From NCBI GenBank assembly GCA_017457865.1, contig JAFTGN010000056.1, positions 1 through 50,361 on the forward strand: 50,361 nt of DNA. The letters run 5' to 3'. Positions 2,005 to 24,112 of the stretch are shown here, piece after piece. How positions within the stretch are numbered: position 1 is the first letter of the stretch; every line of letters starts with the position of its first letter. A model generated the notes under the pieces. That model saw only the letters and a list, made by a program, of their open reading frames with translations. It made no database searches and had not been told where the DNA came from. The position numbers and the translations under genes are program-made. The DNA comes from Lachnospiraceae bacterium (GTDB lineage: Bacteria > Bacillota > Clostridia > Lachnospirales > Lachnospiraceae).

Positions 2005-2339
2005 CGGGCAGATCATTGCGAAACACTTTAGAGATGTACATACAGTCCGTATATCATAAATTTTTATTTATAGGGCTGGAATTAAAGTCTATTTACGTAC
2101 TGGCAAGGAAGGCAAATATGTCTTAAGAAGGCTCTTGTAGAAGCCGGCACTTTGTTTTTTGAGTAATATATCATATTACGATAAAAAACATTAGTGCCGC
2201 TGCATTTCTACACGAAGCGAGAGCGTGCCTTCGAAAGACATATTGCGTACGAAGACAGTACGTATAGATACCTACCAGCCCTATAAATATAAATTTTGAT
2301 AAAGGACGTACGGTATAGAGTTTCGCAATGATCTGCCCG
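2005..2339 (+). repeat. Dispersed structured-RNA repeat, copy R1
   Basis: A ~335-nt element filling the gap between the PHP gene and the AAA gene. It closes with a perfect 20-bp inverted repeat (2005-2024 with 2320-2339). Inside are a second long helix (2053-2079 with 2275-2300), a third (TACGTACTG 2094-2102 with CAGTACGTA 2256-2264), a fourth (GCAAATATGTCTT near 2112 with AAGACATATTGC 2235-2246), GTAGAA/TTCTAC (2137-2142 with 2206-2211) and an AT-rich apical hairpin (about 2153-2190). Conserved loop blocks shared with two other copies include GAAGCGAGAGCG at 2214-2225. The orientation set by those blocks is plus, opposite to both flanking genes. No T-tract follows. Not a known family to me; compare 12928-13216 and 22566-22870. 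Confidence 0.75.
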
Positions 2340-12850: not shown

Positions 12851-12927
12851 CCATTCCCTGTAATCTATAACCATCAGATGGGAAGCGTCTGATCAGATAT
12901 AAGAAGATCTGATAAAAGGGTGCCATG

Positions 12928-13216
12928 AGGCAATTGTGAAACTCTTTGAGCAGAATAGGAACAGCCTGCACATCAGAAATTTTATGTTTGCAGGGCAATA
13001 GATAGAATCCAGATATGTGCTGACAAGGAAGGCAAATATGTCTTAAGAAGACTCTTGTAGATGCCGGTACTTAGTATCCGTTGCATCTACACCGAAGCGA
13101 GAGCGTGTCTTTGCAAGACATATTGCGTACGAAGACAGCACATATAGATGTGTATCTTCCCTGCAAACATAAAATTTTGATGAAAGGCGTTCGGTATCAT
13201 AGTTTTGCAATTACCT
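12928..13216 (+). repeat. Dispersed structured-RNA repeat, copy R2
   Basis: A ~289-nt rod-like element. The closing helix pairs 12928-12943 with 13201-13216, with two wobbles and one mismatch. The second helix pairs 12971-12995 with 13159-13182, almost perfectly over about 24 bp. The third is ATATGTGCTG (13013-13022) with CAGCACATAT (13136-13145), perfect. The fourth is the ATATGTCTT region near 13034 with AAGACATATTGC. GTAGATGC (13057-13064) pairs with GCATCTAC (13083-13090). The loop blocks ACAGCCTGCA, AAGAAG-CTCTTGTAG, GAAGCGAGAGCG (13094-13105) and AAAGGCGTTCGGT match R1 and R3. It lies in sense orientation between the kinase and the DUF4342 gene, and ends about 30 nt before that gene. 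Confidence 0.78.
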
Positions 13217-13247
13217 AAGAGTGATCACAAAGGAAAGGAGCATGGGA

Positions 13248-22552: not shown

Positions 22553-22563
22553 GGTACATCAGA
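22553..22563 (+). repeat. 11-bp direct repeat, left flank of R3
   Basis: GGTACATCAGA occurs here and again at 22873-22883, exactly bracketing the structured element. Could be a target-site duplication or the product of duplication around the element. Confidence 0.5.
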
Positions 22564-22565
22564 CA

Positions 22566-22870
22566 GGTGATTGCGAAACTTTTTTGAATTGAACCAAAAC
22601 AGCCCGCACATCAGAAATTTTTCATTCAAAAAACTTTGTGGAACGCCGGTACTTTATTCTCGTTAGCAATGAGTCGGGCTGACAAGCTTGCTTGTCAGTA
22701 TGACGAATGCCGCGAGTGCCAAATATCCAGTTGCCTGCAACGGTATATTTGGCATTTTGAGCAATAAGCGAAAAAAATATTAGTACCGTTGCGTGAAACC
22801 GAAGCGAGAGCGTGTTTTTTGAATAAAATTTCTGATGAAAGGCGTTCGGTTTCATAGTTTCGCAATTGTC
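22566..22870 (+). repeat. Dispersed structured-RNA repeat, copy R3, inside the oxidoreductase operon
   Basis: A ~305-nt element between the delta and alpha subunit genes. The closing helix is GGTGATTGCGAAACT (22566-22580) with 22856-22870, including three wobbles. The second helix pairs 22609-22634 with 22814-22837, 24 bp with a 2-nt bulge. CGGTACT (22647-22653) pairs with AGTACCG (22782-22788). It lacks the third and fourth helices of R1/R2, but carries about 110 extra apical nt with two hairpins: CTGACAAGC/GCTTGTCAG (22679-22698) and TGCCAAATAT/ATATTTGGCA (22717-22754). Conserved loops: ACAGCCCGCA, GAAGCGAGAGCG (22801-22812) and AAAGGCGTTCGGT. Sense orientation to the operon; flanked by the direct repeat GGTACATCAGA. 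Confidence 0.78.
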
Positions 22871-22872
22871 CA

Positions 22873-22883
22873 GGTACATCAGA
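22873..22883 (+). repeat. 11-bp direct repeat, right flank of R3
   Basis: GGTACATCAGA, identical to 22553-22563. It lies just upstream of the AAAGGAAA ribosome binding site of the alpha subunit gene. Confidence 0.5.
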
Positions 22884-22900
22884 AAGAGAAAGGAAACAGT

Positions 22901-24112
22901 ATGTCAGAGAATCGTTTATATACAGAACCGGTTGCCGGTATCCCGGACAGAATGTCTGGGAATGAAGCGGTAGCCAATGCAATTCGTCAGATCAATCCGG
23001 ATGTGATGCCGGCATTCCCCATCACACCATCTACAGAAATTCCACAGTTTGTGGCAACCATGATTTCCAACGGGGTCATTGATACAGAGTTTATCCCGGT
23101 AGAAAGTGAGCATAGTTCCATGAGTGCGGCCATGGGCGCATCTGCGGCAGGTGCCAGAACCCTGACTGCCACTTCTTCCTGTGGTCTGGCTTACATGTGG
23201 GAGATGCTGTATGTGGCAGCATCTGACCGTCTGCCTGTTGTGATGGCAGTGGTCAATCGTGCCCTGACCGGCCCCATCAACATCAATGCAGACCATTCCG
23301 ACAGTATGGGTGCAAGAGATTCCGGCTGGATTCAGATTTATGCAGAGAACAATCAGGAAGTATATGACAATTTCATCCAGGCCTACCCCATTGCAGAGCA
23401 TAAGGATGTGATGCTGCCGGTGATGATCTGTCAGGATGGGTTTATCACCAGCCATGCGGTGGAAAATATCACGTTGTTGCCGGATGAGCCGGTAAAGGCA
23501 TTTGCCGGGGAGTTTGAGCCGGAACATTACCTGTTAAAGAAGGACGAGACCATGGCAGTAGGGCCTTATGCGGTGTCTAAATACTGTATGGAGGCGAAAA
23601 AAGCACAGGCAGAAGCCATGAAGCGTGCCAAGGACGTGATCTTAGAAGTAGGAAAGCAGTTTGGTGAGATGTCCGGCAGAACCTATGGCTTCTTCGAGGG
23701 GTATGAATTAGAGGATGCAGAGTATGTCTGCGTGGCCATCGGCAGTGCCTGCGGTACCATTAAGGAAGCCATCCGGGCCCTTCGTGCAAAAGGAGTGAAG
23801 GCTGGTCTGTTAAAAGTCAGAGTATTCCGCCCATTCCCGGCAGAAGAGATTGCGGCTGCATTGCAGCATGCAAAGGTCATCGCCATCATGGATCGTTGTG
23901 AAGGCTACAGCGCACAGGGCGGTCCTTTGGCGGCAGATGTGATGGCAGCATTATACAGAGCCAAGAATCAGGCAGAAGCATTCAATGTATTGTATGGTTT
24001 GTCCGGTCGTGATGTACAGGTAGAGGACATCGAAGGCTTGTATGCCCAGATGCAGCAGATTGCAGAAGGGGCGGCATATGAGACCTATCAGTACATGGGT
24101 CTGAGAGAGTGA
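22901..24112 (+). CDS. 2-oxoacid:ferredoxin oxidoreductase, alpha subunit
   Basis: Alpha subunit (PorA/VorA type), 403 aa, carrying the pyrimidine-binding side of the TPP site and the transketolase-like C-terminal domain. Landmarks: 'MSGNEAVANAIRQINPDVMPAFPITPSTEIPQ', 'FIPVESEHSSMSAAMGASAAGARTLTATSSCGLAYMWE', 'GPININADHSDSMGARDSGWIQIYAENNQEVYD' and C-terminal 'VCVAIGSACGTIKEAIRALRAKGVKAGLLKVRVFRPFP'. ATG 22901 has AAAGGAAAC upstream and opens 'MSENRLYTEPV'; a longer in-frame extension runs into repeat R3 and is rejected. The next gene starts 18 nt after its stop. The exact 2-oxoacid is not decidable by eye. Confidence 0.93.
   Translation: MSENRLYTEPVAGIPDRMSGNEAVANAIRQINPDVMPAFPITPSTEIPQFVATMISNGVIDTEFIPVESEHSSMSAAMGASAAGARTLTATSSCGLAYMWEMLYVAASDRLPVVMAVVNRALTGPININADHSDSMGARDSGWIQIYAENNQEVYDNFIQAYPIAEHKDVMLPVMICQDGFITSHAVENITLLPDEPVKAFAGEFEPEHYLLKKDETMAVGPYAVSKYCMEAKKAQAEAMKRAKDVILEVGKQFGEMSGRTYGFFEGYELEDAEYVCVAIGSACGTIKEAIRALRAKGVKAGLLKVRVFRPFPAEEIAAALQHAKVIAIMDRCEGYSAQGGPLAADVMAALYRAKNQAEAFNVLYGLSGRDVQVEDIEGLYAQMQQIAEGAAYETYQYMGLRE

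Follow-up and report, generated by a model that had tools for sequence, protein, structure and literature searches.

Introduction

The bcr1 repeat is mobile and dispersed and can adopt a folded form, and we know of no rule that places it relative to Shine-Dalgarno (SD) sites. Its host, ends and size differ from those of the family described here, whose members R1, R2 and R3 lie in one contig of a Lachnospiraceae bacterium. The bcr1 repeat belongs to the Bacillus cereus group and is counted among the bacterial MITEs in the relevant portion of PMC3733652. Excerpts of PMC3049150 describe the BOX elements of Streptococcus pneumoniae as modular, and both BOX and RUP as tightly folding elements, ends included, that make duplications and are present in one genome in 125 and 110 copies, respectively. 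In the same excerpts, BOX, RUP and SPRITE are over-represented in the intervals between convergent genes, and no fixed distance to an SD site is given for them. The ends and the host of these elements are also different from those of the R1-R3 family. To our knowledge, the RAYT transposases of the REP/REPIN system make no target-site duplication, whereas the R1-R3 family shows 10-12 bp duplications and has a putative DDE-type transposase as partner. The likeness to REP/REPIN lies in the palindromic, dispersed nature of the repeats, as outlined in part of PMC3733652, and in the head-to-head pairs that the core of the present family forms in other genera. REPs are 20-40 bp long in the relevant part of PMC3116915.

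The window analyzed here is the whole stretch of 50,361 nucleotides of contig JAFTGN010000056.1. A first-pass annotation proposed that three ~300-nt elements in it represent an undescribed structured RNA. We conclude that R1-R3 are very probably non-autonomous DNA transposons (MITEs) that land near SD sites and have an IS-type transposase as partner. The grounds for this identity are the inverted ends, the high copy number, a 10-12 bp duplication that accompanies roughly half of the copies, and an empty site. Two further grounds are a transposase-bearing insertion sequence (IS) that occurs in other genera of Lachnospiraceae and shares these ends, and the remnant of its right end that the window's own genome retains.

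Three Elements of the Window

R1, R2 and R3 were found where the first-pass annotation had placed them, and they are homologous rods of ~290-330 nt that form one family. Their bounds were redefined by the inverted ends. R1 (2009..2335, plus strand) is a complete MITE copy with inverted ends, loops A and B, and a core. It is apparently an old copy, since its flanks show a duplication match of 2/11 and no SD motif lies 10-24 nt off either end. R2 (12927..13217, plus strand) is likewise a complete copy with inverted ends, loops A and B, and a core. Its left terminal inverted repeat occupies 12927..12943 (plus) and its right one 13201..13217 (minus), and the apical core hairpin at 13047..13112 (plus) scores 72.0 bits with the model named R1, which was built with the R2 core included. 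A clear duplication is missing from its flanks (5/11). The sequence reads AAGGAG, an SD motif, at 13235..13240 (plus), 17 nt beyond the R2 end and ahead of in-frame ATGs at 13242 and 13248.

R3 (22564..22872, plus strand) lacks loop B and belongs to another sub-type, which consists of loop A, the core and an extra apical insert. It is flanked by a perfect 11-bp target-site duplication (GGTACATCAGA), with the left copy at 22553..22563 and the right copy at 22873..22883. An SD motif, read as AAGGA, lies at 22890..22894 (plus), again 17 nt beyond the end, and the gene downstream starts at 22901 and encodes POR_N and PFOR_II domains (Pfam). The loop blocks first described as constant are so in general, except that GGCAAATATGTCTTAAGAAG and CTCTTGTAG are missing from R3. 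The structured apical insert of ~100 nt (R3 apex, about 22659-22754) is also found in L224, L027, L029, L030, L034 and L057, and it can be present or absent at one and the same orthologous insertion.

Folding z-scores against dinucleotide shuffles are -15.4 for R1, -9.6 for R2 and -7.7 for R3. No ORF of at least 100 aa lies entirely within R1, R2 or R3. A promoter scan around R2 returned 2 promoters against 2.0 expected, with none inside the element.

The absence from Rfam that the first-pass annotation anticipated was confirmed, with 0 matches at the gathering score in the window and in eight loci of the family (L001-L008). A below-threshold search with R2 gave three matches, with E values of 1.6-6.5. 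Five loci were likewise searched below threshold; this gave a T-box in L036 and a sub-threshold cspA hit in L043, and both were rejected as the identity of the family. The T-box leader (L036 227-495, minus, 100.2 bits) is in the locus of element C77. The cspA thermoregulator match (L043 2607-2956, minus) reaches 41.7 of 78 bits and overlaps a core copy; it is probably a chance product of long pairing.

Copy Number and Modular Organization

The family is far larger than the three copies first noted, and R2 alone has 72 blastn matches in its own assembly, a 2.6 Mb Lachnospiraceae genome (G000). The MITE inverted ends are ~17 bp long (YAGRYAATTGCGAAACT). With up to 3 mismatches, the end pattern AGRYAATTGCGAAACT is matched 181 times forward and 163 times in reverse in this assembly (344 in all), as opposed to 20 and 28 times (48) for the reversed pattern. 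Ends in the fetched loci were paired into 80 TIR-bounded copies of 70-441 nt, 77 from the own genome and 3 from a sister species (G002); some of these pairings are probably wrong, among them a few with 3-4 mismatches. The copies are modular. The shortest form consists of the ends and loop A (about 84-114 nt), a second of ends, loop A and core (about 213 nt), and a third of ends, loops A and B, and core (about 330 nt, the R1 and R2 type). Further forms repeat the loop-B module. Several contigs of the own assembly terminate within MITE copies.

The elements show the features of a MITE: they are short and non-coding, with terminal inverted repeats, a target-site duplication, an empty site, and ends common to a transposase-coding element. 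As a small non-coding mobile element found in bacteria of the gut and rumen, the family probably depends on a separate transposase gene for its movement. Eight unpaired ends in the own genome were checked for an autonomous copy, and none was found. Unpaired single ends occur near genes in L060, L063, L070, L074, L077, L091 and L092, and they are probably remnants of palindrome-mediated deletion. A long rod at L044/L107 1-780 has units of about 60 nt and more that are repeated in step on both arms. The end and core patterns had no match in viral contigs.

Target-Site Duplication and Orthologous Sites

The 11-mers immediately outside both ends were compared in the 80 copies, with a threshold of at least 8/11 and re-paired (shuffled) flanks as a control. 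A direct repeat at this threshold flanks 36/80 copies versus 1.4% of re-paired flanks, and 18 copies have a perfect 11/11 duplication, which is seen in 0 shuffles. The remaining 44/80 copies, R1 and R2 among them, have no duplication at the threshold.

Comparison with the sister species revealed an empty site. An 11-bp repeat flanks a 332-nt element of the sister species (L042) on both sides; in the own genome, the orthologous place (L078) is unoccupied and has a single copy of the 11 bp. At the R2 site the sister species retains just a 14-nt scar, of the kind that a deletion between short direct repeats could leave. Its copy at the R3 site has lost internal sequence and measures 97 nt. The two members of the orthologous pair L059/L224 have just one large difference, namely about 100 nt inserted at the apex, an insert of the R3 kind. 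At two further orthologous places (L015/L199 and L016/L047), the two species carry different subfamilies within a few bases of each other, which suggests recurrent insertion.

Position Relative to Shine-Dalgarno Sites

An SD-like motif starts 10-24 nt outside an end in 61/80 copies, mostly at 16-20 nt; the other 19/80, R1 included, have none in this range. A motif together with an ORF start within 90 nt is found for 54/80 copies compared with 344/2544 random positions (13.5%) in the same loci. The sister species follows the motif rule in 12/20 copies. When 97 copies (77 from the own genome, 20 from the sister species) were pooled, 73/97 had an SD motif and an ORF within 60 nt, a count made with a broader motif list than that for the 80 copies. 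In this pooled set, the median distance to the SD motif is 17 nt (IQR 16-18) and that to the start codon is 30 nt (IQR 28-32).

Thirty-seven copies have a duplication of at least 9/11, and in this group a motif lies within 45 nt on 31 sides, first at 17 or 18 nt in 22/31. With a duplication of 11 bp and an SD motif at 17-18 nt, the duplication ends about 6 nt before the SD motif. The flanks are AT-rich. Relative to the adjacent gene, the core is in the same orientation in 28 cases, opposite in 23, and undetermined in 3.

An Insertion Sequence with the Same Ends

The exact end 16-mer TAGRYAATTGCGAAAC is present in 71/397 genomes of the family Lachnospiraceae, and its reversed control in 0. Twenty places and two plasmid records were inspected, and an IS copy was defined by both ends lying 1.1-2.1 kb apart. 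This gave 14 IS copies in other genera. Their length is 1744-1766 bp in 13 cases and 1276 bp in the remaining one; 10/14 have a transposase frame of 485-501 aa, and in the other 4 the frame is broken. Pfam places DUF772 above the cut-off in 2/2 proteins and DDE_Tnp_1 in 1/2, exactly at the cut-off. The best NCBIfam match is the IS1182 family (NF033551); the two scores, 73.9 and 66.3 bits, compare with a cut-off of 270 bits. The predicted enzyme is of the DDE type and related to IS1182, yet it falls below the family cut-off and is not filed as a member. A description of an SD-proximal rule or of a 10-12 bp duplication for IS1182 was not found in the open-licence literature. D149, D290 and Y422-R425-E429-K436 are invariant in 5/5 aligned transposases, two of which are tblastn-matched parts from Roseburia and Butyrivibrio plasmids; the latter four residues fit the Y(2)R(3)E(6)K signature. 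A PDB sequence search with the transposase had no match up to E 1, and no transposase was found in phage records.

The IS copies follow the SD rule on one side. In 12/12 non-nested copies, the first SD motif lies 13-18 nt beyond the right end, and none of the 12 has a motif beyond the left end within 30 nt (45 nt for 11 of 12). The same distance is seen in G337, G200, G046, G106, G065 and G009 and in the Roseburia plasmid. The transposase frame is read in the direction leading away from the end that faces the SD motif. A 10-12 bp duplication flanks 8/12 non-nested copies (7 perfect, 1 with one mismatch), and 4 have none. The two nested copies of the 14, in L284 and L306, abut a second IS across a common target repeat, which spans 10 bp in the former and, by eye, 14 bp in the latter.

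A search of 12 end-bearing genomes located an intact transposase in G337, G200 and G375 and a broken one in G194. There was no match in the other seven apart from the own genome (G002, G169, G206, G018, G362, G117 and G409), and the own genome has a relic of 39 residues only. An intact gene was not found in G000, G002 or G169; contig breaks may have cost some copies. The relic, located in contig C43, derives from the right end of the IS, now decayed (72.8% identity over 239 bp, E 1e-30 for that locus alone), and by eye an SD motif lies 17 nt outside it. An IS4-type transposase (PF01609) was considered as a partner and rejected; it has 2 matches in the own genome, neither bounded by a pair of MITE ends. 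None of the 20 IS-end loci contains the core, which indicates that the MITE interior did not arise from the IS by deletion.

The Apical Core Across Lachnospiraceae

At E <= 1e-4 and with 13 candidates scored per genome, the core model has matches in 112/299 Lachnospiraceae genomes, a set in which each genus is represented once and which contains the own genome; many genomes have at least 10 copies. The exact core pattern occurs in 60 named stretches. Carriers include Oribacterium sinus, O. parvum, a record titled Lactobacillus rogosae, and a Blautia, along with MAGs titled Lachnospiraceae, Butyrivibrio, Lachnotalea, Clostridiales, Eubacteriales, bacterium and, once, Muribaculaceae.

Many genera have the core without the ends of the IS and the MITE. 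By eye, G169 has the core with the same ends and ~11-bp repeats, G092 and O. sinus have it with different ends, and G084 has it within palindromic arms that are unique to each copy. In the G092 elements (L231-L239), the inverted ends that enclose the same core have a very different sequence (GTAACRGTTCAGCCGT), suggestive of a second mobilizing system. One core of the own genome that lacks the ends of the IS and the MITE (L028 1860-2170) is part of a stem next to a T run, an arrangement resembling a terminator. A duplication test on 14 O. sinus copies showed no excess. For one G084 hairpin, an empty-site check in G389 matched the two flanks to different contigs.

In 46/74 cases in other genera, the gene that lies 3' of the core is oriented toward it, based on crude ORF calls. 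No recurrent partner protein, mobile type included, was seen by eye among the clusters of neighboring ORFs. Neighboring matches less than 500 bp apart in other genera (n=12) comprise 10 head-to-head pairs (minus-then-plus), 2 pairs with both members on one strand and 0 plus-then-minus. Closely spaced cores occur in L112, L123, L125, L141, L142, L146, L149, L192, L107, L139 and L119.

Covariation

The compensated helices that led to the RNA proposal are real. Paired cells make up 92.2%, and 116 cells are double-changed versus 39.9 in shuffles. In slid registers of the core alignment, pairing drops to 40-51%. Covariation exceeds background in the core set of 25 copies, chosen from 57 distinct ones, as well as in a wider core alignment of 105 distinct rows from many genera, in which most pairs occur in several Watson-Crick types.

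Structural RNAs generally tolerate G-U far more than A-C. The 53 single mismatches among 6194 stem pairs (72 oriented elements) include 19 G-U and 15 A-C, and a second method gave 21 and 15. The wider core alignment has 86 G-U and 62 A-C among 2973 cells; this alignment was fitted to a model that favors G-U, and a few columns give most of both. A clear excess of G-U over A-C was not found in the stems, a comparison in which no known RNA was run as a control. The pairing pattern would fit a DNA palindrome held symmetrical on both strands. Since A-C mismatches are about as frequent as G-U mismatches and the elements occur in both orientations to the gene, a strand-specific RNA is not favored, and the proposal of a functional structured RNA is not supported. 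The first-pass annotation had allowed that a mobile element would speak against its proposal, and what we found are inverted ends, 10-12 bp duplications, an empty site and a transposase-bearing IS that shares both the ends and the target rule.

Discussion

The DDE transposase of the IS would bind the shared ends in trans and would join them across a stagger of ~11 bp, about 6 nt upstream of the SD motif. Because the distance to the motif is tight, the purine-rich SD stretch is probably the recognized target. Landing here may offer a safe place, as the reading frame and the SD motif would be left intact. The internal rod is probably a modular palindrome with arms complementary at the DNA level and not through strand-specific RNA selection. 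Template switching or the need for a DNA hairpin may uphold this complementarity, which is the least certain part of the explanation. Several observations are at odds with the explanation. The MITEs are found in both orientations, whereas the IS presents its right end to the SD motif. In addition, 44/80 copies lack a duplication, 19/80 lack an SD motif, and G000, G002 and G169 lack an intact transposase.

We consider it unlikely that the family is a new class of functional structured RNA that is spread by mobility and selected for its fold. Strong covariation, internal-loop blocks that stay constant, a GNRA-like mini-hairpin in which double changes occur rarely, the presence of the core in 112 of 299 genomes of different genera, and a leader position at many genes would all suit such a class. 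However, G-U is barely more tolerated than A-C (19 vs 15 mismatches; 86 vs 62 cells), both orientations to the gene are about equally used (28 vs 23), R2 is lost and R3 shrunken in the sister species, and the neighboring ORF clusters show, by eye, no recurrent partner protein. It is very improbable that the SD rule is a product of survival alone, with random insertion into AT-rich DNA and persistence of leader copies only. Selection does act on any insertion, and the flanks are AT-rich; however, the IQR of just 2 nt in the SD distance speaks against such a filter. The same distance recurs, on one side only, in IS copies from six genomes and the Roseburia plasmid, and different subfamilies lie within a few bases at two orthologous places (L015/L199, L016/L047).

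A further explanation concerns the core and is compatible with the identification as MITEs. The core may have arisen in Lachnospiraceae as a palindromic repeat in its own right, older than its capture between the IS ends in this genus; we regard this as an even call. The many genera that have the core without these ends, the different ends in G092 and O. sinus, the copy-unique arms in G084, the IS without the core, and the terminator-like stem of L028 in the own genome all point in this direction. Against it, no capture event was observed, and the 14 O. sinus copies tested have no duplication.

As MITEs with a partner IS, the elements are ordinary in kind; the target rule and the common hairpin core are unusual. 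We recognized no paper on this MITE family or on SD-targeted insertion in the open-licence literature, which is weak evidence of absence. The strong base-pair covariation seen here shows that, in dispersed repeats, covariation is not in itself proof of a functional RNA. How transposons choose their targets is a long-standing question. Some eukaryotic elements aim upstream of tRNA genes. In bacteria, a DDE IS with insertion points about 17 nt ahead of ribosome-binding sites would be the counterpart of these tRNA-gene-targeting elements. A hairpin core in about one third of the sampled Lachnospiraceae genera poses a second problem beside target choice. Tentatively, and as a possibility that we rate somewhat below even, a transposase family may read the SD region as its target, either directly in the DNA or by way of the translation-initiation machinery, and unrelated transposon ends may have wrapped repeatedly around a DNA hairpin core that is spread family-wide, with the hairpin aiding mobility or persistence.
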